33,720 bases of DNA from an uncultured Prevotellaceae bacterium (lineage in GTDB: Bacteria; Bacteroidota; Bacteroidia; Bacteroidales; Bacteroidaceae). A program made the translations under genes and the position numbers. The stretch's first letter is position 1; every line of letters begins with the position of its first letter. The notes under the pieces are model-generated. The model worked only from the letters and a program-made list of their open reading frames with translations, was not told the origin of the DNA and ran no database searches. Shown piece after piece: positions 4,832 through 33,720 of this stretch. The DNA lies in the NCBI GenBank assembly GCA_900321835.1, contig ONXQ01000015.1, positions 1 through 33,720 of the forward strand, given 5' to 3'.

Positions 4832-4891
4832 GTCAAGAGTCAAGTGTCGAGAGTCAAGAGTCGAGGGGCGAGAGTCGAGGGTCAAGAGTCC
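4832..4891. repeat. Degenerate 7-bp tandem repeat (GTCRAGR), eight units
   Basis: Eight consecutive 7-mers starting at 4832 (GTCAAGA, GTCAAGT, GTCGAGA, GTCAAGA, GTCGAGG, GGCGAGA, GTCGAGG, GTCAAGA) plus a partial unit. They lie between the start of the sorting-tail protein gene and the end of the BASS transporter gene. A short AT-rich tract with AATTAAG-like 7-mers follows. Similar arrays occur at 5944 and 26768. Confidence 0.85.
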
Positions 4892-5909: not shown

Positions 5910-5943
5910 ATAATAATTAAAAAATAAAAATCAAAAATTAAGG

Positions 5944-5983
5944 GTCGAGGGCCAAGAGTCAAGAGTCGAGAGGCAAGGGTCTT
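5944..5983. repeat. Degenerate 7-bp tandem repeat (GTCRAGR), five units
   Basis: Five consecutive 7-mers (GTCGAGG, GCCAAGA, GTCAAGA, GTCGAGA, GGCAAGG) between the BASS transporter promoter and the recG stop codon. It is preceded by an AT-rich tract and followed by a small C/G-rich hairpin-forming stretch (about 5984-6020) similar in style to the two-hairpin element inside recG. Confidence 0.8.
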
Positions 5984-5998
5984 CCACCATTCGGGGAA

Positions 5999-6020
5999 GT
6001 TAGAGGGCTTTCTCCCTAAC
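5999..6020 (-). terminator. Possible short hairpin overlapping the recG stop codon
   Basis: GTTAG and GGG (5999-6007) pair with CCCTAAC (6014-6020) with one bulged base. No U-run follows on the minus strand, so a terminator role is weakly supported; it may simply be part of a repeat element. Confidence 0.25.
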
Positions 6021-8193
6021 TGATGCTGCCCCAGTTGATGTTTGTCTTGCGCAGTTCACGCAGGCGTTGCCACAGCACGGCGTTGACGGGGTTTTGCCCG
6101 TCGGGGTCGCTGCCTACGATTTCCTGCGCAGCGTCGCGGGCCATTTGCAGGATGATGCCGTCCTTCGCCAAGTTCGCAATCTTGAGGTCGAAGGCCATGC
6201 CACTCTGCTGCGTGCCTTCCAGGTCGCCCGGACCGCGCAGTTTGAGGTCCTGTTCGGCAATTTCAAATCCGTCGGTCGAATCGACCATAATCTGAATGCG
6301 CCGGCGTGTGTCGTCGCTCAGTTTTGTCTTTGTCACAAGGATGCAGAACGACTGGTCGGCACCGCGGCCGACACGTCCGCGCAACTGGTGGAGTTGGCTC
6401 AGGCCGAAGCGCTCGGCATTCTCAATCACCATGACCGAGGCGTTGGGCACGTTCACGCCCACTTCGATGACGGTCGTGGCCACGAGAATCTGTGTCTCGC
6501 CCGAGGAAAAGCGCTGCATTTCTGCATCTTTCTCGGCAGGTTTCATCTGGCCGTGTACCTTCGACACCTGGCAGTCGGGGAAAGCCTCGCAGATTTGTTC
6601 GTAGCCGTCCTCGAGGTTCTTCAGGTCGATTTTCTCGCTTTCCTTGATGAGCGGATAGACCACATAGATTTGCCGCCCGAGTTGGAGTTGGCGGCGCATA
6701 CCGGCGTAGAGGGTGGCACGGTGGCTGTCAAACTGGTGGATGGTCTCGATTGGTTTTCGGCCCGGCGGCAGTTCGTCGATGACGCTCACGTCGAGGTCGC
6801 CGTACAGCGTCATGGCCAACGTGCGGGGGATGGGCGTGGCGGTCATGACGAGCACATGGGGCGGCGTCAGGCTCTTTTGCCACATCTTTGCGCGTTGTGC
6901 CACGCCGAAGCGGTGCTGCTCGTCGATGATGGCAAGGCCGAGGTGGGCAAACTGCACGTTGTTCTCAATCAGCGCATGGGTGCCGACGGCGATGTGCGTC
7001 GTGCCGGTGACGAGTCCGTTGAGCACCTCCGTGCGGCGCCGTCCTTTCACGCTGCCCGTGAGCAGTTCGACCGTGACGGGCATGTCTCCGAGCAACTTGC
7101 GCAGCGTCTCGACGTGCTGTTCGGCCAGGATTTCGGTCGGCGCCATGATGCAGGCCTGATAACCGTTGTCGATGGCGATGAGGGCACACATCAGCGCCAC
7201 GAGCGTCTTGCCGCTGCCCACGTCGCCCTGCAGCAGACGGTTCATCTGGCGTCCGCTGCCCATGTCGGCACGGATTTCGCGGATGACACGCTTCTGTGCC
7301 CCTGTGAGCGGGAAAGGCAAGTGGTTGAAATAGAAGTCGTTGAAGGTCTGCCCGACGTGCTGGAAGACGATGCCGCTGTGCTTTCGGGCACGGTCGTGGG
7401 CATAGCGCACGATGTTGAGTTGGACGAAGAACAGTTCCTCGAACTTCAGGCGGGCCTGTGCCCGGCGCAATGCGTCGGCCGAGGCAGGGTAGTGGATAGT
7501 TCGCACAGCCTCGTCGTGCGAAATGAAATGGAATCGGTCGATGAGCCACTGCGGCAGTGTCTCGGGCAGCGGCTGGTCGAGCATCTCCAGCAGTTTGGCC
7601 GTCAGCCGGGCTACCTGTGCCGAGCCCATGCCCCGCTTCTTCATCACCTCCGTCGTGTGGTAGTGGGGGCGGAAAGCAAAGCCCCCTCCAACTCCCCCCA
7701 ATGGGGGAGGGGGCAAAGCAATCCCTTCATCAAACAAAGCCTGCTGTACCCCCTCTGACATCCCCCATTCGGGAGAGCCAGAAGGGGCTTCCTCCATTTC
7801 CGGATGGGCAATGTTCAGTCGGCCCTTGAAGGGCTGCGGACGTCCGAACACGATGTAGGGGCGATGGAGGTCGTACTGCTTGGCAATGTATTTCACACCC
7901 TGGAACCACACGAGGTCAATCACGCCCGTGCCGTCGGAGAAATGTGCCACCAGCCGTTTCTTACGGCCCTCGCCGAAGTCCTCGAACGAGAGGATTTCGC
8001 CCACAATCTGCACGTAGGGCATCGTTCCGTTGATGTCGGCGATGCGGAAGAAGTGAGTGCGGTCGATGTGCTTGTAGGGGTAATACGCCAGCAGGTCGCC
8101 CACCGTCTTGATGGCGAGTTCCCTGCCCAGCAGGTCGGCACGTGCCGGTCCCACGCCTTGCAGATACTTGATGTCCTGGTCGAGTCGGAGCAT
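6016..8193 (-). CDS. recG: ATP-dependent DNA helicase RecG with an in-frame insertion
   Basis: RecG remodels stalled replication forks and Holliday junctions. The protein begins MLRLDQDIKYLQGVGP, the family's usual start, so I place the start at the ATG at 8193 and not at the in-frame codon at 8295; this gives 725 residues. The N-terminal wedge (OB) domain is followed by the helicase core with Walker A GDVGSGKT, the DEQHRFG box, MTATPIPRT and a C-terminal QLRGRVGRG motif. Between the wedge strand ending HPEME and the conserved HYHTTEVMKKRGMG there are about 35-39 extra residues (roughly 132-174). They are low in complexity, including LPPPPLGGVGGGF, and are encoded by a palindromic repeat-like DNA stretch. 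The reading frame stays open and all motifs are intact, so the enzyme is probably active. The genes on both sides are unrelated. Confidence 0.95.
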   Translation of the reverse strand: MLRLDQDIKYLQGVGPARADLLGRELAIKTVGDLLAYYPYKHIDRTHFFRIADINGTMPYVQIVGEILSFEDFGEGRKKRLVAHFSDGTGVIDLVWFQGVKYIAKQYDLHRPYIVFGRPQPFKGRLNIAHPEMEEAPSGSPEWGMSEGVQQALFDEGIALPPPPLGGVGGGFAFRPHYHTTEVMKKRGMGSAQVARLTAKLLEMLDQPLPETLPQWLIDRFHFISHDEAVRTIHYPASADALRRAQARLKFEELFFVQLNIVRYAHDRARKHSGIVFQHVGQTFNDFYFNHLPFPLTGAQKRVIREIRADMGSGRQMNRLLQGDVGSGKTLVALMCALIAIDNGYQACIMAPTEILAEQHVETLRKLLGDMPVTVELLTGSVKGRRRTEVLNGLVTGTTHIAVGTHALIENNVQFAHLGLAIIDEQHRFGVAQRAKMWQKSLTPPHVLVMTATPIPRTLAMTLYGDLDVSVIDELPPGRKPIETIHQFDSHRATLYAGMRRQLQLGRQIYVVYPLIKESEKIDLKNLEDGYEQICEAFPDCQVSKVHGQMKPAEKDAEMQRFSSGETQILVATTVIEVGVNVPNASVMVIENAERFGLSQLHQLRGRVGRGADQSFCILVTKTKLSDDTRRRIQIMVDSTDGFEIAEQDLKLRGPGDLEGTQQSGMAFDLKIANLAKDGIILQMARDAAQEIVGSDPDGQNPVNAVLWQRLRELRKTNINWGSIS
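7676..7794. repeat. Two-hairpin repeat element inserted in frame in recG
   Basis: Two C/G-rich imperfect palindromes: about 7680-7714 (GCCCCCTCC... with GGGGGAGGGGGC) and about 7748-7788 (CCCCCTCTGACATCCCCC with GGGAGAGCCAGAAGGGGC). They are joined by a 30-35 nt spacer. The stretch encodes exactly the residues that are extra in RecG. A comparable composite occurs at 25794-25884 inside the HTCS gene. Confidence 0.7.
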
Positions 8194-8292: not shown

Positions 8293-8392
8293 CAAGCGCT
8301 TGGAAAAAAACTTCTGAGCGCTCAGAAAAAAACGTCCGAGCGCTCAGACGAAAATTTCTGAGCGCTCGGACCTTTACGTGCGCACGTGCGCG
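8293..8392. repeat. 22-bp phased AGCGCT array, locus A, with conserved flank
   Basis: Four 11-bp near-palindromes begin at 8293, 8315, 8337 and 8359 (CAAGCGCTTGG, TGAGCGCTCAG, CGAGCGCTCAG, TGAGCGCTCGG). They are exactly 22 bp apart, with A/T-rich spacers such as ACGAAAATTTC. A 22-bp flank (8371-8392, starting CCTTTACG) follows. It contains the perfect palindrome ACGTGCGCACGT (8376-8387), and its reverse complement recurs next to locus C with three differences. The array lies between the 3' end of the GH2 gene and the recG start. Confidence 0.9.
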
Positions 8393-8415
8393 TATGTGAA
8401 TAAAGAATGTGTCGC

Positions 8416-11400
8416 CTATCGGCGGACGGTCTTCTTGCCGCCGCTGATGTAAACATGACCGTCGGCCGGAATGTTGTGGGTCGTAAGCCGGCGTCCGCCG
8501 AGGTCAAAGACGGGCTGCTCTCCTTGTCCTTCGTTCTTTGTTTGTACTTCTTTTACTCCTGTGGCTTCGGGGTCGGCCATGCGGACCATCGTGATGCCGG
8601 CGAGGTAGCACCAGTTGTTGCCGTTCTCGGCCGTGGCACGCATACCGAGGGTCAGCGTTTCGCCCTCCTTCAGGTCGATGACGACGCTGTAGAGGCCGTA
8701 GGTGTCGGTGGTGACGGGGGTGCTGACGTCGGTTCCGTTGCTCGATTTGGCGAAAAACTCAGTGCCGGCCTGTGGATTGCGGTCGTTGTCGCTGCCCGAC
8801 CAGAGGTTGGCGGCGCAGAAGGCTGCGATGCCGTAGCGACCGGCTGGCAGCGAGGTGATGTCCTGACGGAAGAAGTCGGCACCCGTCGGTGCGGCGCCCG
8901 ACCAGTAGGCCAGGCCCGTGCCGCTGTAGATGGCAGAGCCGAGTTTCGCCTCCGTATAACCGCCCGAGGCATTGCCGGGCACTTTCGCCCAGTTCACGCC
9001 GCCGAACTGCGGCACGGCGATGGTGCGGTCTTCGTAGTTGTGCTCAAAATCGAAGTCGCTGTCGTACTGGAGGTCCACGTTGTCGAGGGCGAACCAGTCG
9101 GCGTTGGTGTCGGCTGCAAACTGGATGAGGAAGGTGACAGCCTGCGGCTCAGACAGGGTGAACTGCATCGTGGCGTGTTGTGCCGCTGCGCCGTCGATGC
9201 TTGTCAGTTCAAGAGTCTCGCCGCCGATTGCAGCCGTGACGCCCGACATCGTGCCGTCGGTCTTGTAGTGGCTGCCACCTTGGTTAAAAGTTCCGTTATA
9301 GTCGAACGAAAGGGTGTAGTCGCCTGCGGGCAGGACTTTTGTGCTCTGCGAAATGCTCTGGCCCTGCAGCGTCGCGGCCGAGGTCCAGCCGACGAAGCAC
9401 TCCAGAAAGTTGGTCAGTGTAGCGTCGTTCCACGAGTTGCCGCGATACTTCATCATGTCGCTGTTGCTCACCGTCCATCCTTCGATGCTTCCCTTTTCAA
9501 ACAAAGGGTTTTTGAAGAACAGTTCGCTCATGTCCTTCGGCTTTTCCTGCAACTTGGCTTCCAGACGGACTGTGCCGGCCGTGCCGTTGGAGCGCACGAT
9601 GGCGAGCGCACGACCGCGGAAGGCTGTCGGAGTCAGCGTGCGGAAACTCTCCATGTCGTTCGGCGAACCGGTGCAGCAACCGAGGAGTTCGCCTGCGCCG
9701 ACATTGGTGACGTTGATTTTGGTCTCGCAGTCGCTCGTGACGACATTGCCCTCGTCGTCGATGAGTTCAATGGTCACATAAACGAGGTCGTTGAGGTTGG
9801 CTGAAATCTGATCTACGTCGTCGTCAAAGACGAAGCGCACACCCGTAGCCTTGCCGGTGGTTTTCAGCACAAATTCCTCGCCAGCCACTTCGTTGCCCGC
9901 GTTGTCGAGGTTGACCAGACGCAGTGTGCCGGGCTTGTAGGTGACGTTGAATCCGCACCAGAACGTGTTGCCGGGCGTGCCTTCGCCCACCACCTCGTCG
10001 TTCAGGTAGAGGCGCACACGCGGTGCACGGCTGTAGGCGTTGACGCTGAGCGTCTGTCCCTCCATGCCGGGATAAGTCCACGACTGCTCTTCGAGTTGCC
10101 AGCCCCACCAGTTCCACTGCGAACCCGTGGTCACGACGGCCATCGTCACCGGAGCCTCGCGCCAGACGATGTCCTTGTAGTACGACTGCGGCTTCTTCTG
10201 GCCGATGAGGTCAAGGTCGCCGCAATGTCCGTTGAACCACGGCCAGCCGGCGAAGAAAGGCGGTGCGGCGTCGGGCAGTGCTGCGCCGATGCCTGCTTCG
10301 CCCAGATAGTCCATCGCCGTCCAAACGAAGTCGCCGACGACGTAGGGCATACGCTCGACAAGGTCCCAGTTCTCCGCGATTTTTTTCGGATAACTCTCCA
10401 GGCCGCACATCACACGGTCGGGATATTTGCTGTGGTCGTATTCGTACTTGTCGTACATGTAGTTGTAGCCACCTACGTCGAGACTTTCGAAGGCGTTGTC
10501 CGACTGGGCATCCCAACTGCCGCTGGCAAAGTTCCACGCATCGCCGGCGTCCCATCCGCAGATGGCTGCGGTGACGGGTCGGGTGGTGTCGTATTTCAGG
10601 ACGTCAGCACGCAGGCGGGCAGCAGCAGCCTTTCCTTCGGGCTCGATGCGTCCCGGAATTTCGTTGCCGATACTCCACATGATGATGGAGGGATGGTTAC
10701 GGTCGCGGCGCAACATGACAGCCATGTCGTCGTCGCTGTGGGTGGCGAAATAGTTGTGGTAGTCCTCGTTGTTCTTCTGCAGCAGCCACTGGTCGAAACA
10801 TTCGTCGATGACCATGAGGCCGAGCGAGTCGCAGACGTCGAGGAAGTGTTCCGAAGGCAGATTGTGACTGCAGCGCACGGCATTGTAGCCCAGGGCCTTG
10901 ATGAGCCGCAGTTTGCGCACTTCGGCCTTGTCGAACGCAGCAGCGCCGAGCATACCGTTGTCGTGGTGGACGCAGCCGCCCTTGATGAGGGTGTTCACGC
11001 CGTTCAGCAGGAATCCCTCGGTGGCATTGAACCGGAGTGTACGGAAGCCGAAACGCTTCTGGAACGTGTCCACCGTGTTGCCTTTGTCGTCCTTGATGCT
11101 GACGACGGCGGTGTAGAGATAGGGCGATTCGGGACTCCAGGTCTTGGCACCCTCGACCGTCAGATGCTGGCTGACGTCCTTGTCCGTGGCGGGTTGTACG
11201 CCCGAGAAGTCGCTGCTGCCTTCGGTGACGGGGTTGCCGTTGGCGTCGAGAATCTTCACGTCGAGACTGCCTGCGAAATCGGCGTCCGTCGCATTGTGGA
11301 CGATGGTGCTGACTGCCACGTGGCGGTTGTCAGACGTCTGGATGTACGTGTCCCATTCGTCGAGATATGTGCGGCTCGTCTGCAGCATCCACACGTGGCG

Positions 11401-12507: not shown

Positions 12508-13848
12508 ATGGATGCAAAAAAAGTATTGGAAGACCTCAAGCGTCGTTTCCCGAATGAACCTGAATACCATCAGGCCGTAGAAGAAGTTCTCGGAACCATC
12601 GAGGAAGAGTATAACAAACACCCTGAGTTCGACAAGGTGAACCTGATCGAACGCCTCTGCATCCCCGACCGAGTATATCAGTTCCGCGTCACATGGATGG
12701 ACGACAAGGGCAACATCCAGACGAACATGGGCTACCGCGTGCAGCACAACAACGCCATCGGCCCCTACAAAGGCGGTATCCGTTTCCACGCCAGCGTGAA
12801 CCTCGGAATCCTGAAGTTCCTCGCCTTCGAACAGACGTTCAAGAACTCGCTGACCACACTGCCGATGGGCGGTGGCAAAGGCGGAAGCGACTTCTCGCCC
12901 CGCGGCAAGTCGAACGCCGAAGTGATGCGTTTCTGCCAGGCATTCATGCTGGAACTCACCCGTCACATCGGTCCGGACGTCGATGTGCCGGCAGGTGACA
13001 TCGGTGTCGGCGGTCGCGAAGTCGGCTATATGTTCGGCATGTATAAGAAACTCACACGCGAATTCTCCGGCGTGCTCACAGGCAAGGGCCTCGAATTCGG
13101 CGGCTCGCTCATCCGTCCCGAAGCCACGGGTTACGGCAACGTCTATTTCCTCCGCGCCATGCTCCGCACCAAAGGCGACAGCATCGAAGGCAAGAAAGTG
13201 CTCATCAGCGGTGCAGGCAACGTGGCACAGTACTGCGCCGAGAAGATTCTGCAACTGGGCGGCAAGGTGATGACCATGAGCGACAGCGACGGTTACATCT
13301 ACGACCCCGACGGCATCGACCGCGAGAAACTCGACTACATCATGGAACTGAAGAACCTCTACCGCGGCCGCATCCGCGAGTATGTGGACCAGTATCCCAC
13401 CGCCAAGTACGTGGGCGACGGAGCCAAACCCTGGTTCGAAAAGGCCGACATCGCCTGCCCCTGCGCCACACAGAACGAACTCAACGAAGAGGCAGCCAAG
13501 GCCCTCGTAGCCAACGGCGTCATCGCTGTGGCCGAAGGTGCGAACATGCCCTCCACGCCCGGAGCCATCAAGGTGTTCCAGGAAGCCAAGATACTCTATT
13601 CACCGGGCAAGGCTAGCAACGCCGGCGGTGTGAGCGTCAGCGGCCTCGAAATGTCGCAGAACTCCGAGCGCCTCAGTTGGAGTGCCGAGGAAGTGGACCA
13701 GAAACTCCTCTGGATCATGGAGAACATCCACGAGAACTGCGTCAAGTACGGCACCGAGCCCGACGGCTACGTCAACTACGTCAAAGGTGCCAACATCGCC
13801 GGCTTCATGAAGGTCGCCAAGGCCATGATGGCACAGGGAATCGTGTGA
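12508..13848 (+). CDS. gdhA: Glutamate dehydrogenase, hexameric type, NADP-like site
   Basis: A 446-residue cytoplasmic enzyme interconverting 2-oxoglutarate plus ammonium and glutamate. Family motifs are intact: YKGGIRFHASVN, the catalytic-lysine region MGGGKGGSDFSPRGKS, the catalytic-aspartate region PAGDIGVGGREVGY, and the Rossmann loop SGAGNVAQ. After the second Rossmann strand the coenzyme loop reads MSDSDGYIYD. The SDS signature resembles NADP-dependent enzymes such as E. coli GdhA (SDSSG), so I infer a preference for NADPH and an ammonia-assimilating role. A second paralogue lies about 3.4 kb downstream on the other strand with a different loop. It has its own strong promoter and a GC-rich terminator, so it is monocistronic. 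Confidence 0.93.
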   Translation: MDAKKVLEDLKRRFPNEPEYHQAVEEVLGTIEEEYNKHPEFDKVNLIERLCIPDRVYQFRVTWMDDKGNIQTNMGYRVQHNNAIGPYKGGIRFHASVNLGILKFLAFEQTFKNSLTTLPMGGGKGGSDFSPRGKSNAEVMRFCQAFMLELTRHIGPDVDVPAGDIGVGGREVGYMFGMYKKLTREFSGVLTGKGLEFGGSLIRPEATGYGNVYFLRAMLRTKGDSIEGKKVLISGAGNVAQYCAEKILQLGGKVMTMSDSDGYIYDPDGIDREKLDYIMELKNLYRGRIREYVDQYPTAKYVGDGAKPWFEKADIACPCATQNELNEEAAKALVANGVIAVAEGANMPSTPGAIKVFQEAKILYSPGKASNAGGVSVSGLEMSQNSERLSWSAEEVDQKLLWIMENIHENCVKYGTEPDGYVNYVKGANIAGFMKVAKAMMAQGIV

Positions 13849-17224: not shown

Positions 17225-18562
17225 TCACACAATTCCCTGTGCCATCATGGCCTTTGCCACTTTCATGAAGCCGGCCACGTTGGCACCGCGGACGTAGTTG
17301 ATGTAGCCGTCGGGCTGTGTGCCGTACTTGACGCACTGCTTGTGGATGGCGTGCATGATCTGGTGCAGTTTCTGGTCCACTTCGTCGGCTGTCCACGAGA
17401 GGTGCATGGCGTTCTGGCTCATTTCGAGGCCCGACGTGGCCACACCGCCGGCGTTGACGGCCTTGCCCGGTGCATAAAGCATTTCGGCAGCGATGAAGGC
17501 GTCGATGGCTTCGGGAGTGCAACCCATGTTGGAGATTTCTCCGACGCAGGTGACGCCGTTCTGAATCAGCATCTTGGCATCGTCGCCGTTGAGTTCGTTC
17601 TGCGTGGCGCAAGGCAGTGCGATGTCGCACTTCACCTCCCACGGACGACGGCCGGGCACGAAGGTGGAGCCAGGGAATTCGTCGGCGTAGGGCTGGCAGA
17701 TGTCGTTGCCCGAGGCACGGAGTTCGAGCATATAGTCAATCTTCTCGCCGCTGATGCCCTCGGGGTCGTAGATGTAGCCGTCGGGGCCGCTGATGGTGAT
17801 GACTTTGGCACCGAGTTGCGTAGCCTTCGTGGCAGCACCCCAGGCGACGTTGCCGAATCCGCTGATGGCCACGGTCTTTCCCTTGATGTCGATGCCTTTC
17901 GTCTGCAGCATTTCGTTGACAAAATAGAGGCCGCCAAAGCCTGTGGCTTCGGGACGGATCAGGCTGCCGCCAAATTCGAGGCCTTTGCCCGTGAGCACAC
18001 CGCTCCAGTCGCGCGTCAGTTTCTTGTATTGACCGAACAGGTAGCCCACCTCGCGGGCGCCGACGCCGATGTCGCCAGCCGGGACGTCGATTTCGGGACC
18101 GATGTAGCGGTACAGTTCGTTCATGAAGGCCTGGCAGAAACGCATGATTTCGGCGTCGCTCTTGCCGCGGGGCGAGAAGTCGCTTCCGCCCTTGCCACCG
18201 CCCATCGGCAGCGTGGTGAGGGCGTTTTTGAAGGTCTGCTCAAAGCCGAGGAATTTCAGGATGGAGAGGTTGACGGATGCGTGGAAACGCAGGCCGCCCT
18301 TGTAGGGACCGATGGCCGAGTTGAACTGCACACGGTAGCCGAGGTTGACCTGCACCTCGCCCTTGTCATCGACCCACGGCACGCGGAAAGTGATGATGCG
18401 TTCGGGTTCGACGAGACGCTCAATCAGTTTGGCGCGTTCAAACTCGGGGTGCTGGTTGTAAACCTCTTCGATCGACAGCAGCACCTCGTGCACAGCCTGC
18501 AAATACTCCTTCTCGCCTGGATGTTTGGCCTCCAGTTGGGCCATGATGTTTTCGATTTTCAT
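17225..18562 (-). CDS. Glutamate dehydrogenase, hexameric type, NAD-like site
   Basis: A 445-residue paralogue of the dehydrogenase at 12508. The catalytic stretches MGGGKGGSDFSPRGKS and PAGDIGVGAREVGY are identical or nearly so, and the C-terminal GFMKVAKAMMAQGIV is the same. The coenzyme loop differs: ISGPDGYIYDPEGI, which matches my memory of the NAD-specific Clostridium symbiosum enzyme, so I infer NAD(H) use and possibly a catabolic role. The substrate-side segment also differs (VGEISNMGCTPEA against VAEGANMPSTPGA). The start MKIENIMAQLEAKHPGEKEY aligns with the paralogue and is favoured over the upstream codon at 18628. Its own consensus promoter lies at 18640-18609. comF follows with a one-base gap. 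Confidence 0.92.
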   Translation of the reverse strand: MKIENIMAQLEAKHPGEKEYLQAVHEVLLSIEEVYNQHPEFERAKLIERLVEPERIITFRVPWVDDKGEVQVNLGYRVQFNSAIGPYKGGLRFHASVNLSILKFLGFEQTFKNALTTLPMGGGKGGSDFSPRGKSDAEIMRFCQAFMNELYRYIGPEIDVPAGDIGVGAREVGYLFGQYKKLTRDWSGVLTGKGLEFGGSLIRPEATGFGGLYFVNEMLQTKGIDIKGKTVAISGFGNVAWGAATKATQLGAKVITISGPDGYIYDPEGISGEKIDYMLELRASGNDICQPYADEFPGSTFVPGRRPWEVKCDIALPCATQNELNGDDAKMLIQNGVTCVGEISNMGCTPEAIDAFIAAEMLYAPGKAVNAGGVATSGLEMSQNAMHLSWTADEVDQKLHQIMHAIHKQCVKYGTQPDGYINYVRGANVAGFMKVAKAMMAQGIV

Positions 18563-18700: not shown

Positions 18701-18777
18701 TAAGCGCTTGGAAAAAAACTTCCGAGCGCTCGGACGAAAACTTCTGAGCGCTCGGACGAAAATTTCCGAGCGCTTGA
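18701..18777. repeat. 22-bp phased AGCGCT array, locus B
   Basis: Four units begin at 18701, 18723, 18745 and 18767 (TAAGCGCTTGG, CGAGCGCTCGG, TGAGCGCTCGG, CGAGCGCTTGA), spaced exactly 22 bp. The outer units carry the weaker AAGCGCTT-like arms and the inner ones the GAGCGCTC arms. A degenerate fifth repeat may precede it (ACTTGGAGAAAATCGTC). It lies between the gdh promoter and the 3' end of the GH51-like gene. Confidence 0.9.
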
Positions 18778-18808: not shown

Positions 18809-20065
18809 TCAGCGCACCATCACTTTTCGGCTGCCTACGATGTAGATGCCTTTTTTCAATTGAGGATTGACCACGCGACGGCCCTGCAAATCGTAGGCTT
18901 CTCCAAACAAGAATGAGTCACTTAATGGTTCACTTTTCATGGCGGCCTCGTCGCTTTCATTATGAATTTCCCCGATGCCCGTTGCGATGGGCACATCGTC
19001 CACCGTCAGTTCCACAGTGTTGAGGCTCAGCGGACGCAGTTCGGCCGCCACGGCACCGTCCATCACAGGCGTGAGCGTTGTTCTGGTCGTCGAAGTGGCT
19101 GTGACACTGTTCAGCACTTCAGGCGAGAAGGCTTTCGACACACTCTTGCGCGTCAGCGAGGCATACTGAACATCGGCATCTTTCAGCCTCACGACCACCT
19201 GCTGGTTCTGCGCCGTTGGGTTGGCCATGCGCACCCACACGCGGCTGCCGTCGTCGCTGACGGTGGCCGAACCATAGAGCGACGAAGCCGAGGTGAGCAC
19301 AATGTCGTGGATGAGCCGTCCGTCGATGTAGCAGCGCACGTGTTCGCCCTCCATCACCACCTTCAGCGCATAGGTCTGCCCTGTCGTGATGCTGCCTGCG
19401 GCCGTGGCCAGCGTTGTCTTCACGCCGCCGATGCACTGCTCGATGGCGTGCTGCGTGTTGTTCCATCCGCCGATGTTCCACCAGCAGTAATTCTCATTAT
19501 CGACATAACTGAAAGCGATGAGAAAACCCTCTGCGCCGCTCAGTTTGGTGGCGTCGAGACGGAGTGTGCCGTCGTGGCCGGTACGGCGGTAGCACACGTT
19601 GAGGCTGCCCAGGTCGGACTCGTTCGTCTGGCGCAGTGTGCCGTTCTCCACGCTCCATGAGCCGCCGTTCTGGTTCCATTCGTCGCCTGTGTTGGTGAAC
19701 GAATCGGAGTAGAGCACAGTGCCGTCGGCGGCTGTCACCTCCACATTGTCGAATGCTGCTGTCGTTGCCCACGTGGCGAGGCCGAAGTAGTTGTCGCGCA
19801 TGGGCACACCGCTGTTCATCGGTTGCAAGGCCAGCGGCGTCGTGGCGTTTTCGCCTGTCGTCTGACTGAAGAAGGGGTTCTGGAGCAACTGGGCGTAGTA
19901 ACCGTCGTCGGCGGCATAGACGTTCTCCTTCAGATAGGCCGTGTAGTAGTCGTCGCCCGACACCGTCACGGCATTGCCTGCGTCGAAGTTCAGCATCACC
20001 TGGGCCGTGGCGGCCTCGGCGACCATCAGCAGACAGGTTGTGAAGAGAGTCAGATGTTTTCTCAT
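18809..20065 (-). CDS. Secreted GH51-arabinofuranosidase-like protein lacking the catalytic barrel
   Basis: A 418-residue exported protein. Signal peptide 1-21 (ending ATAQ); the start MRKHLTLF at 20065 is preferred over the codon at 20140 because it gives a clean signal and follows a TATCTTTG box. Residues 24-66 (ENVYAADDGYYAQLLQNPFF) recall the N-terminus of GH51 arabinofuranosidases (compare 'INYAADGGLYAELVQN'). Residues 95-258 form a LamG/CBM-like module (WSVENGTLRQT; NYCWWNIGGWNNTQHAIEQ; CYIDGRLIHD), and 262-355 resemble the GH51 C-terminal beta domain. The catalytic TIM-barrel that should lie between residues 66 and 70 is absent. The C-terminus YDLQGRRVV...KKGIYIVGSRKV is a T9SS-like tail. 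Likely a binding protein for arabinose-containing glycans; the GH51 relation is from memory of the family. Confidence 0.65.
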   Translation of the reverse strand: MRKHLTLFTTCLLMVAEAATAQVMLNFDAGNAVTVSGDDYYTAYLKENVYAADDGYYAQLLQNPFFSQTTGENATTPLALQPMNSGVPMRDNYFGLATWATTAAFDNVEVTAADGTVLYSDSFTNTGDEWNQNGGSWSVENGTLRQTNESDLGSLNVCYRRTGHDGTLRLDATKLSGAEGFLIAFSYVDNENYCWWNIGGWNNTQHAIEQCIGGVKTTLATAAGSITTGQTYALKVVMEGEHVRCYIDGRLIHDIVLTSASSLYGSATVSDDGSRVWVRMANPTAQNQQVVVRLKDADVQYASLTRKSVSKAFSPEVLNSVTATSTTRTTLTPVMDGAVAAELRPLSLNTVELTVDDVPIATGIGEIHNESDEAAMKSEPLSDSFLFGEAYDLQGRRVVNPQLKKGIYIVGSRKVMVR

Positions 20066-22539: not shown

Positions 22540-22592
22540 AAGTGCTTGAGAAAAAGTTTTAAGTGCTTAAAAGTAAAATTTCAAGCACTTGA
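22540..22592. repeat. AT-rich sister array, locus E (AAGTGCTT type)
   Basis: Three units: AAGTGCTT at 22540 and 22561, and the reverse-complement AAGCACTT at 22583 (spacing 21 and 22 bp), with A-rich spacers. Units two and three can pair over nine to ten bases (22559-22568 with 22583-22592). It sits in the 123-bp gap between the helical-barrel enzyme gene and the HTCS gene, where it could act as an attenuator or binding site. Locus F (30481) has the same three-unit order. Confidence 0.8.
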
Positions 22593-25600: not shown

Positions 25601-26644
25601 GTCAACGCCACCGTCAAGGGCAGTGGCCTCGGCCTGCCACTCGCCCGTTCGCTGGCCGAGATGCACAACGGCACACTCGTCTATGACGAAAAGCAGCAAC
25701 TGAACCGATTCACCCTCACACTGCCGAAAGCGATAGGCGGAACGATTCCGATGAAGAATGCGGAATTAGGAATGAAGGATGAAGAATCAAGAAACCCCTC
25801 CTCGGGAGAAGTTGGGGAGGTCGATGGCAGCGAGGCGCATGACAGTATATACACCTCTGCCTCACAGGGCGAAGGCAGAAGTGGGTCTGTAGATACCATC
25901 CTCATCGTCGATGACGAGCAGGAACTGCGCGAGTTTGTGTGCGAAGAACTGGCCGAGCACTACACCATTCTCCAGGCAGACAACGGCCAGCAAGCGCTCG
26001 AGGTGTTGCAGCGCGAAAGCGTCTCGCTCATCGTCACCGACCTGATGATGCCCGTCATGAACGGCATCGAACTCTGCGAGAGCGTGAAGGGCGACATGCG
26101 CTACTGCCACATCCCCATCATCGTGCTCACCGCCAAAGTCTCGCTGCAGGACCACCTCGACGCCCTCAACTCACAGGCCGATGCCTACATCGAGAAACCC
26201 TTCTCGACCGTCCAACTCCGTGCCCAGATCGACAACCTCCTGCGCAGCCGCCAACTCATCCGCTCGGCCATGCTCTCGTCGCCATACGCCAACGTCGTCA
26301 CCGTGGCCTCGAACAGCACCGACGAAGACCTGCTCGGCAAGTTGACCGCCGTCGTCTATGACCATCTCGACGACCCCCTCCTCACGGTCGAACTGCTGGC
26401 TGGGCAGATGAACATGAGCACCTCCACGCTCTACCGCAAGGTGAAAGCCGTCACCTCGCTTTCGCCCAACGACTTTATCCGCCTCTGCCGACTGAAGAAA
26501 GCCGCCGAACTGCTGGCCACGGGCAACTACCGCATCAAGGAAGTGGCCGTGATGACAGGTTTCTCGTCGGCCGCCTACTTCACCTCCTGCTTCATGCGGC
26601 AGTTCGGCGTCACCCCCGGTTCGTTCATGAAGAACAAAGAGTGA
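22616..26644 (+). CDS. Hybrid two-component system sensor-regulator (HTCS)
   Basis: A 1342-residue one-protein signalling system of the kind that controls polysaccharide utilisation in Bacteroidetes. The ATG at 22616 gives a signal peptide ending VVQAQ. Periplasmic two-bladed-propeller (Reg_prop) repeats are seen as many WVGT / WIG...GL motifs to about residue 650. A Y_Y_Y domain and a membrane helix at about 767-790 follow. Inside are the histidine kinase (ITHEIRTPLS, phosphoacceptor His828; NAMKFCQKH; GSGLGLPLARS), an unusual linker (about 1046-1091), a receiver (ILIVDDEQ; VTDLMMPVMNG with Asp1142; LTAKVS; EKPF) and an AraC-type DNA-binding domain ending VTPGSFMKNKE. It likely senses a breakdown product of the glycan attacked by the neighbouring secreted enzymes and activates their genes. 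No own promoter is clear. Confidence 0.94.
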   Translation: MTQKPHLRLLAAVLLTLLVGVVQAQTSYRFRHYGREQGLSNLNVNCAMQDSRGFVWVGTNIGLNRFDGVRFHTYFSSNQKDSHSMSSNTVNSIAEDAEGRLWVGTTNGLCSFDPQFDRFQRVEAKELGAGVQVFDLQFDPKQRLWASTDSRLVCYRPSDGTLLTFGNILALRVSQSGTVWVSNGEGQLCRYDERTGGFVSFAILTPQQAESSEWINAIVELGDGDLALVTNHGHGYRFSPATGQKCDLFGEGFQSQSSFVHTAIERTATDGSPTLWMGTEDGIVTYNLRTGESAHMRKQFGNPYSLSDNAVHVLFSDREGGVWAGTFFGGMNYVPDEHDEMFSVLQPVDDNGATAAKVVREMAVDAQGQLWVGTEDGGVYRWDDGLRRVNLTWQGKPITRNIQTLMTDGTDLWLGTYEEGIYIVDTRSRQITNHIGSGEAGLHTNTLVHLLRTRDGRILAGTMHLGLLAFDRQTRTFRTFGQKAQGFIHDIYEDSKGRLWVADLVGGIFRSDTVGGTLRRLCPSIKTATTVFEDSEGRIWIGSSSDGLFTVAADDRCSQPLPELARSGIGIDKLSEDGNGCLWISTTDGLYSYDGTAVSRYGSANGLPTEQFNFNSGLRDSTGRIYFGTLNGLVSFVPSSSATPSQKLRVLFTGLTVEGREVTHETDPYILEKSLLYADEIHLRHNQASLSIDFACPLYSVPQAIWYRYRLEGIDHDWTVTKGAQRLTFAGLSPGTYTLVVQASQQNGRWDDEAEASRLRLIVHRPWWNSVWAWIVYALLAAALGFYIFRTATRRRREKRRIENERTENERYRDVLQSKIQFFTTITHEIRTPLSLIMGTLERMERKEKKAEQQEEVGLLRRNAQRLLNLVNQLLDFRKIESSSFLMNFLPTDIAALLREVCADFTPAARQKGADYAIDIPADCTLSVMADREALTKILSNLLSNAMKFCQKHVGVCLEEKGEHVAVSIENDGPRIPHEQVEEIFKPFYQYYGTQVNATVKGSGLGLPLARSLAEMHNGTLVYDEKQQLNRFTLTLPKAIGGTIPMKNAELGMKDEESRNPSSGEVGEVDGSEAHDSIYTSASQGEGRSGSVDTILIVDDEQELREFVCEELAEHYTILQADNGQQALEVLQRESVSLIVTDLMMPVMNGIELCESVKGDMRYCHIPIIVLTAKVSLQDHLDALNSQADAYIEKPFSTVQLRAQIDNLLRSRQLIRSAMLSSPYANVVTVASNSTDEDLLGKLTAVVYDHLDDPLLTVELLAGQMNMSTSTLYRKVKAVTSLSPNDFIRLCRLKKAAELLATGNYRIKEVAVMTGFSSAAYFTSCFMRQFGVTPGSFMKNKE
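25751..25884. repeat. 7-bp tandem repeat plus two-hairpin element inside the HTCS linker
   Basis: 25756-25790 is a run of degenerate 7-mers (GAATGCG, GAATTAG, GAATGAA, GGATGAA, GAATCAA). Two hairpin-type segments follow: about 25794-25820 (ACCCCTCC...GTTGGGGAGG) and about 25853-25884, where TCTGCCT at 25855 pairs with AGGCAGA at 25873. Their order and C/G style match the element in recG. It encodes about 45 extra residues (starting MKNAELGMKDEESRN) between the kinase ATPase domain and the receiver without breaking the frame. Confidence 0.7.
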
Positions 26645-26658
26645 ACACGCCGCCTCCT

Positions 26659-26759
26659 CGCGCACGTGTACGCGTAAAGGTCTGAGCGCTCAGAAAAAAA
26701 CGTCTGAGCGCTCAGACGAAAATTTCCGAGCGCTCAGACGTTTTCGTCCAAGCGCTCGG
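26659..26759. repeat. 22-bp phased AGCGCT array, locus C, with conserved flank
   Basis: Units begin at 26683, 26705, 26727 and 26749 (TGAGCGCTCAG, TGAGCGCTCAG, CGAGCGCTCAG, CAAGCGCTCGG), exactly 22 bp apart. The flank at 26659-26680 ends CGCGTAAAGG. Its reverse complement matches the locus A flank at 19 of 22 bases and lies at the same distance from the array, in opposite orientation. The array sits between the convergent HTCS and rmlA genes. Confidence 0.9.
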
Positions 26760-26767
26760 ATTTTATA

Positions 26768-26835
26768 GTCGAGTGTCAAGGGTCAAGAGCCGAGGGTCAA
26801 GAGGAAAAACCACGAGTTGGCGCTTGACCCTCGAC
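26768..26835. repeat. GTCRAGR 7-mer array with an inverted copy; possible bidirectional terminator
   Basis: GTCGAGT, GTCAAGG, GTCAAGA, GCCGAGG and GTCAAGA run from 26768. The opposite-strand form (CTTGACCCTCGAC) at 26823-26835 pairs with 26768-26780 at 11 of 13 positions. It lies between converging genes and ends five bases before the rmlA stop codon, so the folded RNA could end transcription from either side. Confidence 0.65.
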
Positions 26836-26839
26836 TCAT

Positions 26840-27739
26840 CTATTCCTTCACTTCGCCGAAATAGTGGGTGTCGGCGAGTTGGAGCAGGTACTGGCCGTAG
26901 GCGTTCTTGGCCATCGGCTGGGCGACGGCACGGAGTTTCTCGGTCGAGATCCAACCGTTGTGGTAGGCGATGCCCTCGAGGCAGGCAATCTTGAGGCCCG
27001 TGCGCTTTTCGAGCACTTCGATGTAGGTCGAAGCCTCGCTGAGCGAGTCGTGCGTGCCCGTGTCGAGCCATGCAAAGCCGCGTCCGAGCCGCTGCACCTT
27101 GAGTTGCTGGTCTTGCAGGAACACCTGGTTGACGGTCGTGATTTCCAGTTCGCCACGAGCCGAAGGCTTGATGTGTTTGGCCACATCGACCACGCGGTTG
27201 GGATAGAAATACAGTCCGACGACGGCGTAGTTGGACTTCGGCTGCGCAGGTTTTTCCTCGATGCTCAGGCAGTTGCCGTCGGCGTCAAACTCGGCGACGC
27301 CGTAGCGTTCGGGGTCGTTGACCCAGTAGCCGAAAACGGTGGCTTTGCCTTCTTCGTCGGCTGTGCGGACGGCTTCGTGGAGCATTCCGGTGAAACCGCG
27401 TCCGTGGAAGATGTTGTCACCGAGCACAAGGCAGGCACTGTCGTTGCCGATGAACTTCTCACCGATGATGAAGGCCTGTGCCAGTCCGTCGGGCGACGGT
27501 TGCTCGGCATACTCGAAGCGGACGCCGTAGTCGCTGCCGTCGCCGAGCAGACGTCGGAAGCCGGGCAGGTCGTGGGGCGTCGAGATGATAAGGATGTCGC
27601 GGATGCCCGCCAGCATGAGCACGGAAATGGGATAATAGACCATCGGTTTGTCGAAGATGGGGATGAGTTGCTTGCTCACTCCCTTCGTGATGGGGTAGAG
27701 GCGTGTGCCGCTACCGCCGGCCAGTACGATTCCTTTCAT
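26840..27739 (-). CDS. rmlA: Glucose-1-phosphate thymidylyltransferase
   Basis: A 299-residue cytoplasmic enzyme that joins glucose-1-phosphate and dTTP to make dTDP-glucose, the first step towards dTDP-L-rhamnose and other deoxysugars for surface polysaccharides. The nucleotide-binding signature [16 protein letters not shown] starts at residue 3, followed by [41 protein letters not shown] and [17 protein letters not shown]. Length is usual for RmlA. I place the start at the ATG at 27739; the upstream extension to 27838 would run through the promoter. The other rml genes (rmlB, C, D) are not in the window, so it is a detached copy or its partners are elsewhere. Confidence 0.95.
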
Positions 27740-30480: not shown

Positions 30481-30535
30481 AAGTGCTTGAAAAATTATTT
30501 TTAAGTGCTTAAAACTTTTTTTTTCAAGCACTTAA
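30481..30535. repeat. AT-rich sister array, locus F (AAGTGCTT type)
   Basis: AAGTGCTT at 30481 and 30503, then AAGCACTT at 30526 (spacing 22 and 23 bp), the same order as locus E. Units two and three form a perfect 10-bp stem (TTAAGTGCTT at 30501-30510 with 30526-30535). The loop contains a T-run, and it lies between converging genes, so it could serve as a bidirectional terminator. Confidence 0.8.
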
Positions 30536-30583: not shown

Positions 30584-33505
30584 CTATGCCATCTGCACGA
30601 TGCCCTCCTTGCGCATACCGTCCATCTTAATGGTGAGTGGACGGTCGAGGCGGACGTGGCGCACATGCTCCGTCTCGTGGACGGCAGGCAGGTCGTTGAG
30701 CAGCGACTGGCGGTAGATGCCGTCGCCGAGAAAGTCGTTGACCGTGAAGTAGCCGACGCCGAACGAGGTAAGGTTCTGGAAGAAATGGGTGCCTTGCGAG
30801 GGATCGACGCGATAGTTCTGCAGTCCGGCCTCGACGATGACGCGGGCTGCCGAGATGGCAGGCCACTTCACCGGGACACCCAGCCAGGGGTCGCTCGAAC
30901 CCCAGCGTCCGGGACCGACGAGCACATAGCCGTGGTTGTCGGGACCTGCCTCGAGGAAGGTGCGGTTGATGCGTTCAATCTCCTCTGCAATGGCGGGGTT
31001 GTTGGAGGCGGAGTAGATGCTTTCGCCCGTGGCTGGGTCGGCCGTCTTGACATAGACAATGTCCTGCACGTCGGTGAGGATGCCGTGGCCGATGGCGTTG
31101 TGCGAACGGATGAGGGCGTCGTCGTCGCTCAGCAGCGTGATGTCCTCGTCGAGTGCCATCTTGTTGTCCACCATTGGACGAATCTGCAACAGGTACAGTT
31201 CGCCGGTGCGGTCGGGATGGAGCGCGACGGCGAGTTCGATTTCGACCGGACGCCGCATCTCCTGCTGGCCGTACTTCATTGAGAGGCTGAGCAGTTCGGG
31301 CAGAGGGAAGACACCCTGCTGCAGCACGCCGCAGAAGGTGATGACCTTGCGTCCGCCTTCGTAGATGCCGTCGCGAATCACCTGGTCGTAGGGGTCGAAA
31401 GTCGAGGCGATGAACTGCAGGGCGTTGTCCTTGTCCGCCTCGCGGACGGGCAGACGCAGGAGGTTGAATCCGTCGTCGGTGGAGAAATGGTCGGCCATGT
31501 TCTTGAGGTCGAGGGCGTAGAAGCGCGTCTGCGTCTCGCGCAGCGCCATGTCGAGTTCCGACGTCTGCAGCACCTGATGGGGATGGGCAGGGCAGACGCG
31601 CAGCGAGAGTCCGCCATCGACGATGTATTTGCCCAGTCCCAGCGCCAGGTTGACGATGCCTTCGTCGGCACGTTCGTCGCCGATGGGGTAGTAGTTGACC
31701 GAACGGGCCACACCCGAAATCTGCGGATAGAAGCGGTCGCCGTACTGTGTGCCGACCACCTCTTGCAGAATGACGGCCATCTTCTCCTGGTCGATGACGT
31801 TCGACGTAGCAGCCATGTAGTCCTTCGACGCACGGTAGAAGACGCTGGCATACACCGCCTTGACCGCATCGCTGAGCATGTGCAGCCGCAGGTATTTGTC
31901 GTCGGCGTAGGGCACCATGTACGTCGAGTAGATGCCGGCGAAGGGCTGGTAGTGGCTGTCCTCCAGGAGCGACGACGAACGGATGGCAATCGGTTTGCGC
32001 ACCACTTCGAGGAACGTCATCAGGTCGTCTGCCAGACGTTCCGGCAGCCGGGCACGCAGGAAGTATTGCAGGATTTCGGCGTCGGGCAGGTCGCTCAGCG
32101 CTATCTGATAGAGTTCGTTGGTGTCCATGAATTCGTCGAAGATGTCGGTGCAGAGCACCACCGTCTTCGGAATCATGACGTGGGCACGGTCGAAGGCGTT
32201 GAGGTCGGGATGTCGCTTGATGATGTGGTCAATGAAGGCAATGCCGCGACCCTTGCCGCCGAGCGAGCCGTCGCCGATGCGCTGGAAGTTGGAGTAGGAG
32301 TCGAAGCGGTCGCGTTGGAAGACAGCCACGACGCCCTGGTTCTTCATTTTTCGGTAGGCCACGATGGCGTCGAAGATGATCTGACGGTGCGCATCGACGT
32401 CCTGCAGTGTGTGCCACGTGATGCGGCGCAGAAATTCGCTGATGGGAAAGAGGGCACGCGAACCGAGCCAGCGGCTCACGTTGTTGCGCGAGACGTGGTA
32501 GAGGAGCGACTCGCGCGGCAAGGTGAAGATGTTGTCCTGCAGGTCCTTCAGGTTGCGGATGCGCGCCACTTCTTCCATCGTCCTGGGGTCGCGGAAGATG
32601 AAGTCGCCAAAGCCGAAATAGTTGCTGATGAGGTGGCGCAAATCGACGTTCATCTTCTTCGAGTTCTTGTCGATGAACGATGCGCCGCACTGGCGGGCCA
32701 GACTCTCGTTCTCAGCCTCCGACGACTCCATGATGAGGGGCACATACTCGTCGGCGGCACGGATGGCCGAGAGCAGGTCGAAACCTGCGTGTTCGTCTTT
32801 CACGCCGCCGCGCGGAAAGCGGCAGTCGCTGATGACGCCGAGCACATTGTCGCGGTGGCGCTCATACATGTCCCACGCCTCCTCGTAGGTGCGGGCCAGC
32901 ACAATCTTCGGGCGTCCGCGCATTCGCAGCGTCTCCAGTTGGGAGTTCAGCGCCTCGGTGGCAAACTCGAGGCTCTGCTGCAGCACAAACTTGTAGAGGT
33001 TGGGCAGGATGGAGGAGTAGAAGCGGATGCCGTCCTCGACGAGCAGAATCATCTGCACGCCTGCCTCGATGTCGTGCTCGAGGTTCATCTTGTCCTCAAT
33101 CAGTTTGATGATGGAGAGCAGCAGGTCGGTGTTGCCCAGCCAGCAGAACACGTATTCAAAGATGGAGAGATCCTCGTGCTGCATCCGTTTGGTGATGCCG
33201 TGCGAGAAAGGGGTGAGCACGACGATGGGCACCTGCGGATGCTGTACCTTGATGCTGCGGGCGATGTCGAACACGTCGTTGTTGTCCGTTCCCGGCATAC
33301 AGATGACGAGTTCAAAACTCGTGCGCGCCAGTTCCTTCTCCGCCTCCTCCTGCGAGGCCACCTGCACGAAGCGCGGTGGGTAGCGCAGACCCAGTTTGGA
33401 GTATTCGTCGAAGATTTTCTCATCGACGCGCACATTGAAGATGCGCCGCCGCATGAGGTCGATGAAGTTGGTGTCGTGCAGGACGACGGGAGTGTTTGTG
33501 GGCAT
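30584..33505 (-). CDS. Tandem receiver-like domains fused to a PPDK/PEP-synthase-type ATP-grasp domain
   Basis: A 973-residue cytoplasmic protein. Residues about 1-140 resemble a receiver fold with the phosphoacceptor Asp lost (LVICMPGTDNND). Residues about 150-285 form a second receiver with ILLVEDG (Glu157, Asp158), VISDCRFPRGG (candidate phosphoacceptor Asp227) and FIDKN (Lys280). From about 405 a pyruvate-phosphate-dikinase-type ATP-binding domain follows: GDGSLGGKGRGIAF, KPIAIRSSSLLEDS, QPFAGIYSTYM, and late LYLLQIRPM. The swivelling phosphohistidine domain (usual TSHAA motif) and the PEP/pyruvate barrel are not seen, so it is unlikely to make PEP itself. Similar 'PEP/pyruvate-binding domain' proteins are known in Bacteroidetes without a role. 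It is monocistronic, starting at the ATG at 33505 with GGAG/AAGGA upstream. Confidence 0.8.
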   Translation of the reverse strand: MPTNTPVVLHDTNFIDLMRRRIFNVRVDEKIFDEYSKLGLRYPPRFVQVASQEEAEKELARTSFELVICMPGTDNNDVFDIARSIKVQHPQVPIVVLTPFSHGITKRMQHEDLSIFEYVFCWLGNTDLLLSIIKLIEDKMNLEHDIEAGVQMILLVEDGIRFYSSILPNLYKFVLQQSLEFATEALNSQLETLRMRGRPKIVLARTYEEAWDMYERHRDNVLGVISDCRFPRGGVKDEHAGFDLLSAIRAADEYVPLIMESSEAENESLARQCGASFIDKNSKKMNVDLRHLISNYFGFGDFIFRDPRTMEEVARIRNLKDLQDNIFTLPRESLLYHVSRNNVSRWLGSRALFPISEFLRRITWHTLQDVDAHRQIIFDAIVAYRKMKNQGVVAVFQRDRFDSYSNFQRIGDGSLGGKGRGIAFIDHIIKRHPDLNAFDRAHVMIPKTVVLCTDIFDEFMDTNELYQIALSDLPDAEILQYFLRARLPERLADDLMTFLEVVRKPIAIRSSSLLEDSHYQPFAGIYSTYMVPYADDKYLRLHMLSDAVKAVYASVFYRASKDYMAATSNVIDQEKMAVILQEVVGTQYGDRFYPQISGVARSVNYYPIGDERADEGIVNLALGLGKYIVDGGLSLRVCPAHPHQVLQTSELDMALRETQTRFYALDLKNMADHFSTDDGFNLLRLPVREADKDNALQFIASTFDPYDQVIRDGIYEGGRKVITFCGVLQQGVFPLPELLSLSMKYGQQEMRRPVEIELAVALHPDRTGELYLLQIRPMVDNKMALDEDITLLSDDDALIRSHNAIGHGILTDVQDIVYVKTADPATGESIYSASNNPAIAEEIERINRTFLEAGPDNHGYVLVGPGRWGSSDPWLGVPVKWPAISAARVIVEAGLQNYRVDPSQGTHFFQNLTSFGVGYFTVNDFLGDGIYRQSLLNDLPAVHETEHVRHVRLDRPLTIKMDGMRKEGIVQMA

Positions 33506-33632: not shown

Positions 33633-33720
33633 TGAGCGCTTGGAAAAAAACGTCTGAGCGCTCAGACGAAAACGTCCGAGCGCTCGGAAGAAAATTTCTG
33701 AGCGCTCAGAGCCTTAACGC
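33633..33720. repeat. 22-bp phased AGCGCT array, locus D, running to the window edge
   Basis: Units begin at 33633, 33655, 33677 and 33699 (TGAGCGCTTGG, TGAGCGCTCAG, CGAGCGCTCGG, TGAGCGCTCAG), exactly 22 bp apart. The sequence then reads GAGCCTTAACGC, similar to the start of the conserved flank at loci A and C, and is cut by the window end. It lies upstream of the receiver/ATP-grasp promoter. Confidence 0.9.

Follow-up and report, generated by a model that had tools for sequence, protein, structure and literature searches.

The arrays analysed here belong to the non-coding bacterial satellites with repeats of 20-23 nt, a class that has been described yet is unexplained. According to the account in PMC8161180, which cites the work of Subirana and Messeguer (J. 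Bacteriol. 2020), these satellites are constant in size, variable in sequence and species-specific. The same account describes several families of equal size per genome, non-coding and of unknown function, and a protein that polymerises on DNA has already been proposed for them there. The Bacillus paper of the same authors sets a search threshold of at least four repeats. The BrickBuilt MITE, a 23-nt minisatellite of Porphyromonas gingivalis, has a leader, a tail, terminal inverted repeats and 1-22.8 copies; it resembles the present arrays in occurring in Bacteroidales, between genes and at ~20 loci, as imperfect tandem repeats of ~22-23 nt (PMC4596501). REP/BIME/REPIN elements, including the GTAG- and CGTC-tagged REPs, are likewise short, intergenic, species-specific palindromes in high copy number, and the CGTC REPs form mostly head-to-head dimers, with negligible tandem pairs and rare clusters (PMC3733652).

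The window, i.e. the whole stretch of 33,720 nt that was analysed, contains the hexamer AGCGCT 28 times, compared to 10.3 expected, and 100 shuffled sequences peaked at 19. The first-pass annotation had described four AGCGCT dyads at exact 22-bp steps at each of four loci, and this is true at all four (Table 1, family F1). The array at 33633/33635 runs past the contig end, and the terminus of another contig (C20) bears the same array plus its flank, so that this locus was probably split by an assembly break. Three further arrays belong to two other families (F2 and F3). Intergenic repeats based on 7 bp (GTCAAGA/GTCGAGA) were seen at 4832-4890, 5940-5981 and ~26769-26806. The gene names recG, gdhA and rmlA in Table 1 are our assignments from our own reading of the translations.

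Table 1. Arrays and alternating purine-pyrimidine tracts in the window.
Feature	Position	Strand	Details and surroundings
F1 array, four AGCGCT dyads	8295..8366	-	Starts 8295/8317/8339/8361, 22-bp steps; strand set by flank; intergenic, gene ending at 8416 (-) / recG (6016-8193, -)
Alternating tract, 24 nt, core ACGTGCGCACGTGCGCG	8375..8398	-	Adjoins the 8295 array
F3 22-bp array, TTTCGTCYGCRGACGAAA	12116..12169		Upstream of glutamate-dehydrogenase-like gene 12508-13848 (+); other 22-bp arrays in this intergenic region in sister species G009 and G007
F1 array, four AGCGCT dyads	18703..18774	-	Starts 18703/18725/18747/18769, 22-bp steps; flanked by gene 18809-20026 (-) and gdhA (17225-18562, -); no clear alternating tract at its flank
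F2 array, AAGTGCTT, three units	22540..22590		Steps 21 and 22
Alternating tract, 18 nt, CGCGCACGTGTACGCGTA	26659..26676	+	Beside the 26685 array
F1 array, four AGCGCT dyads	26685..26756	+	Starts 26685/26707/26729/26751, 22-bp steps; convergent pair, large gene (+) ending at 26644 / rmlA (26840-27739, -); G009 has its own four-unit 22-bp array at this locus
F2 array, AAGTGCTT, three units	30481..30533		Steps 22 and 23
F1 array, four AGCGCT dyads	33635..33706	-	Starts 33635/33657/33679/33701, 22-bp steps; upstream of gene 30584-33505 (-)

The draft genome to which the window belongs (G000; 2.38 Mb in 226 contigs, 87% complete) was scanned for phased AGCGCT hexamers at steps 22/44 bp. This pattern gave 54 matches and the reversed control none. 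Five-unit arrays and the reappearance of the 33635 array on C20 account for a few matches counted twice, which leaves ~50 arrays. In 483 kb of contigs, mostly chosen for carrying arrays, 149 of the 151 close AGCGCT spacings measured 22 bp, with one of 21 and one of 20 bp; the spacing is nearly invariant. Four units were counted in 43 arrays of this sample, five in four, three in two and two in two, one of the two-unit cases being a chance pair 20 bp apart. Four units are thus present in ~88% of the F1 arrays, with a range of three to five, and one array has five units in G000 but three in the sister species G007, within a 97%-identical block. Of the earlier claim that spacing and copy number never change, the first half therefore nearly stands, whereas copy number is strongly modal rather than fixed. 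The claim that every unit lies on one face of the DNA holds only approximately: at 10.5 bp per turn of B-DNA, 22 bp correspond to 2.1 turns, a drift of ~34 degrees per unit.

The F1 arrays are polar, with a CCAAGCGCT-type unit at one end and a GGTCTG-like start at the other. In 40 of the 42 oriented arrays, the GGTCTG-like start is preceded by an alternating purine-pyrimidine tract, which averages 13.4 nt compared to 5.0 (maximum 8) on the opposite side. The tract is either (CG)n/CACGTG-like or (TA)n; its letters differ and the alternation is kept. Beyond tract and array, the sequence is unrelated from locus to locus. This description replaced the rule that an upstream dyad is always centred 22 bp ahead of the first core, because that rule holds in only 12 of 42 arrays.

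The linkers between F1 cores are 16 bp long, asymmetric and drawn from a small set. This anatomy agrees with the earlier statement that the arrays are not CRISPR, a system with cas genes in which spacers are unique and ~25-40 bp long. Linkers complementary at positions 2, 5 and 6 were found in 2 of 123 cases (16 expected), and complementarity at both central positions in none of the 123 (38.7 expected). The asymmetry is read as selection against long perfect hairpins, the short dyads being kept. Across 41 aligned arrays, several core-adjacent positions are near-invariant and other linker positions vary, and covariation of the two halves of the unit is absent; the core served as the search key, so its apparent conservation is inflated by ascertainment. 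Variation is position-specific, e.g. A/G at one site and AAAA/TTTT. Linkers, and A- and T-runs, occur in either orientation. Invertible linkers were rejected, as the only linker that clearly differs at a locus shared by G000 and G007 changed by substitution and not by inversion.

On the fetched contigs of G000, no F1 array lies inside a called gene. Among intergenic regions of at least 110 bp, arrays are present in 10 of 25 convergent, 15 of 43 divergent and 18 of 95 tandem ones, as counted with one home-made gene caller on contigs picked for bearing arrays. Only 15% of the arrays lie less than 100 bp from a start codon (36% for random positions), and many have a stop codon at most 60 bp away. 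With respect to gene ends, F1 arrays are thus found near stops and away from start codons. Their neighbours are ordinary core genes, such as pheS, a recJ-like gene, superoxide dismutase, phosphotransacetylase and NIF3, and no common regulon is visible among the genes scanned. Ordinary genes flank the arrays in all three arrangements, so the arrays are not terminators and do not mark out a regulon; the first-pass annotation had already judged them not to be classical terminators, and their frequency between divergent genes bears this out. One F1 array (L044, 10508-11715) has a divergent HU-HIG gene on one side and a penicillinase-repressor-type gene on the other; no other HU-like DNA-binding protein was seen among the neighbours scanned.

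AGCGCT itself, which had been taken for the signal, is merely one among at least five 22-bp families in G000, the others being AAGTGCTT (three units), TTTCGTCYGCRGACGAAA, CACYGCRGTG and TTTGAGARYGCRYTCTCAAA. Among 13 genus members, the TTTCGTCYGCRGACGAAA family was found only in G000. AGCGCT arrays are rare in relatives (7 of 150 genomes), and a cursory look at a scan for four AGCGCT units beyond Bacteroidaceae indicated that most matches resemble other tandem repeats. A control pattern, TCGCGA, turned up 22- and 23-bp arrays in other species. In ~1.8 Mb of Bacteroidales sequence from twelve genomes, a period of 22 bp accounted for 160 tandem arrays, a period of 21 for 34 and any other for at most 18; G000, G009 and G023 supply most of the period-22 arrays, which are scarce or absent in some of the genomes. 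Dyad symmetry is more pronounced in repeats with a period of 22 or 44 bp than in the remaining tandem repeats (p = 8.5e-11), in a z-score test dominated by G000 (91 of 175 arrays). Three AAGYRCTT units at 22 bp gave 226 pattern matches in the sister species G009 and 31 in G000, while three AGCGCT units gave 2 and 111, respectively. The AAGYRCTT arrays of G009 also have a mode of four units (17 of 26), and their linkers also avoid self-complementarity. AGCGCT is the version of the G000 species, and the 22-bp geometry recurs with different cores in several Bacteroidales.

Other arrangements were seen in the same genomes. In G077 (L070, L083), GGTGTACACC palindromes are mixed with AGCGCT dyads, seemingly in one 22-bp register. 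The 22-bp arrays of G023 (L154-L156) are very dense, with 20 in 60 kb and AGCGCT/TTTTCCGGAAAA units. Four-unit AT-rich families with a 21-bp period occur in G007 (L234, L236, L242, L243) and G009 (L232, L239); they are bounded by inverted ends, the G007 form being ctcAAAATATCANTGATATTT...gag.

The window is syntenic with G009 (contig C92) and G007 (C35) at ~70-88% DNA identity. Over all comparable orthologous intergenic regions, a sister array was found in 10 of the 21 with an array in G000 and in 1 of the 29 without one (Fisher p = 0.0003; p = 0.002 when stratified by intergenic length). For G009 alone the counts are 7 of 14 and 1 of 19 (p = 0.005). The association is weaker when only longer intergenic regions are considered (pooled p ~0.01-0.02; G009 alone ~0.12-0.15). 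Numbers are small in this test, which counted arrays of 21-23 bp, called at a 66% match over 44 bases with a threshold fixed once and untuned, and which left out a transferred block; one of the G007 pairs is of low complexity and its call doubtful. The distances from array to gene are near-equal in five G009 cases (55/44, 109/109, 31/37, 14/18 and 9/6 bp), and at one shared G009 locus the array flank is nearly identical. The arrays at four shared loci are 46-58% identical and resemble each other no more closely than arrays from unrelated loci do.

In these comparisons, position and layout have persisted while the letters were replaced. The same places and the same geometry with other letters in a sister species suggest that the cell keeps the layout rather than the exact sequence. 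The earlier view that geometry is held and sequence varies is upheld, and more strongly than the window alone could show: sister species retain both the places of the arrays and their layout (22 bp, mostly four units) but use another core. Conservation in relatives is nevertheless divided: F1 loci lack an array at 3 of 7 positions in G009 and at 4 of 4 in G007, whereas positional conservation of all arrays is significant. Arrays are also gained and lost between sister species. A stretch of ~19 kb in G007 (L152, C22:24001-44000) is mostly 97-99% identical to G000 (L051/L052, C130) and includes F1 arrays; with ~70-88% identity elsewhere in the two genomes, it reflects either recent transfer or contamination during binning.

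We favour a DNA-level element with selected geometry. From the comparison of sequences we estimate, with a probability of roughly 0.45, that an oligomerising DNA-binding protein, with a specificity that turns over, uses the arrays as its platform. Located where transcription units meet, they would usually offer four dyad sites with a constant pitch of 22 bp to a protein that is probably nucleoid-organising or insulating and might bind, for example, as four dimers side by side. The protein assembly would set the geometry and the number of sites, and its DNA-reading part the letters of the core. If this part changed between species, the sequence would be replaced in concert, with place and layout kept; several cores within one genome could then represent paralogous proteins or successive specificities. 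We infer protein binding, oligomerisation and chromosome organisation. Consistent with a platform are the ~50 arrays of mostly four units with 149 of 151 steps at 22 bp, the near-invariant core-adjacent positions in 41 aligned arrays, the non-coding placement away from starts beside ordinary neighbours without a common regulon, and the richer dyad symmetry of the 22/44 repeats. The geometry recurs in G009 with another core, a mode of four and the same linker rule, and positions are conserved (p = 0.0003) with sequences at shared loci no more alike than unrelated ones. However, a protein-site pair could hardly shift its specificity at ~50 sites in concert unless the sites were homogenised, the sisters lack an array at several F1 positions (3/7 and 4/4), a strict same-face version would predict 21 bp, and the arms within a unit do not covary. 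Neither a candidate binding protein nor a cognate gene next to the arrays turned up.

An alternative is a satellite that spreads or homogenises itself through slippage, gene conversion or a transposition of unknown kind, is tolerated between genes, and owes its pitch and unit number to the generating mechanism and not to a function. Species-specific repeats are ordinarily explained by concerted evolution. Overwriting of arrays from a shared pool would erase the locus-specific sequence memory, as is the case here, and species-specific families with internal variation, loci empty in a sister species and copy number shifting by whole units also fit. We nonetheless consider such a satellite somewhat unlikely, given that sister species conserve positions, that the mode is four in two species with different cores, and that variation is position-specific instead of a spread-out drift; in addition, terminal inverted repeats were not seen and no transposase family is tied to the arrays.

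Replacement of sequence under a kept geometry could also result if the sequence mattered only structurally. Tandem palindromes with a Z-DNA-prone or (TA)n tract at transcription-unit boundaries could respond to torsion, either absorbing negative supercoiling (as cruciform, Z-DNA or melted DNA) or attracting topoisomerase. The tract at 40 of 42 F1 arrays, with alternation kept as letters vary, and the dyad symmetry of the 22/44 repeats point this way. We regard it as unlikely, since the tract was seen only with F1 in G000 and was absent from those orthologous G009 arrays whose sequence was inspected, and a structure requires no species-wide common core; the linkers avoid extended hairpins, which works against large cruciforms. 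Stem-loops could instead act in RNA, as terminators, 3'-end stabilisers or small RNAs. Both strands fold strongly by prediction (z -6.4 and -7.9), a scan finds short stem-loops followed by T-runs on the minus strand, many arrays are close to stop codons (≤60 bp), and transcription is on record for the 52-nt satellites of Bacillus coagulans (PMC8625621). A role in RNA is still very improbable: A- and T-runs occur in either orientation, units show no compensatory changes and have mismatches where the longest hairpin would form, and no Rfam family scored above its gathering threshold, the search yielding only sub-threshold chance matches to miRNAs. Arrays occupy 15 of the 43 divergent intergenic regions that measure 110 bp or more, which excludes intrinsic terminators as a general explanation.

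If the platform reading is extended, the arrays may constitute a chromosome-architecture system of Bacteroidales, a geometric code at fixed addresses whose letters are all rewritten together as an oligomeric protein family alters its specificity from one sister species to the next; this is possible, though doubtful. The code, equally tentatively, would consist of usually four dyads, the 22-bp pitch and asymmetric linkers.

Compared to the known repeat systems, the arrays have neither the leader, tail and inverted ends of the BrickBuilt MITE nor its wide range of copies, and their outer sequences are unrelated. Unlike REPs, they are strict 22-bp tandem series without a constant tag or a RAYT requirement; CGTC precedes only part of the F1 units and sits within the arms. 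REPIN/RAYT elements were rejected on account of this tandem layout, the lack of a constant GTAG/CGTC tag and the absence of any Y1_Tnp (RAYT) match in the array-rich G009. G000 has a single strong Y1_Tnp match, on C6, and the palindrome at its flanks is a different one. On this contig (L001), the IS200/RAYT-like gene at 1481-1960 is bordered by REP-like palindromes GGTGCTCGCTACGCTCGTACCCTCGG, and ~120 bp from it (1171-1357) there is a 22-bp array with nine units of the type seen in the sister species. Plasmid iterons are a few direct repeats about two helical turns apart that are bound by an oligomerising protein; the present arrays, in contrast, occupy ~50 chromosomal sites and have dyad-symmetric cores, and no replication gene was seen among the scanned flanking genes. 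Phages, plasmids and viral contigs searched for the arrays gave no match, hence nothing indicates that known mobile elements carry them.

The 20-23-nt satellites are closest. Constant length (149 of 151 steps of 22 bp, and 22 as the commonest period in the Bacteroidales sample), several species-specific families per genome and a non-coding location are all found here, and at least four repeats in F1 (mode four), with only three in F2. Measured against the satellites as portrayed in PMC8161180, the present arrays are short, with a mode of four, dyad cores, asymmetric linkers and a polar purine-pyrimidine flank, and they keep their positions despite sequence turnover. New relative to that account are the narrow unit number, the polarity with its tract, the asymmetric linkers and the conserved addresses with turnover. 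Conserved places with replaced sequence argue for selection on the geometry of 20-23-nt satellites and would also be a bacterial case of concerted turnover at dozens of sites. Four dyads at 22 bp are a defined object, which makes the function of these satellites directly testable.
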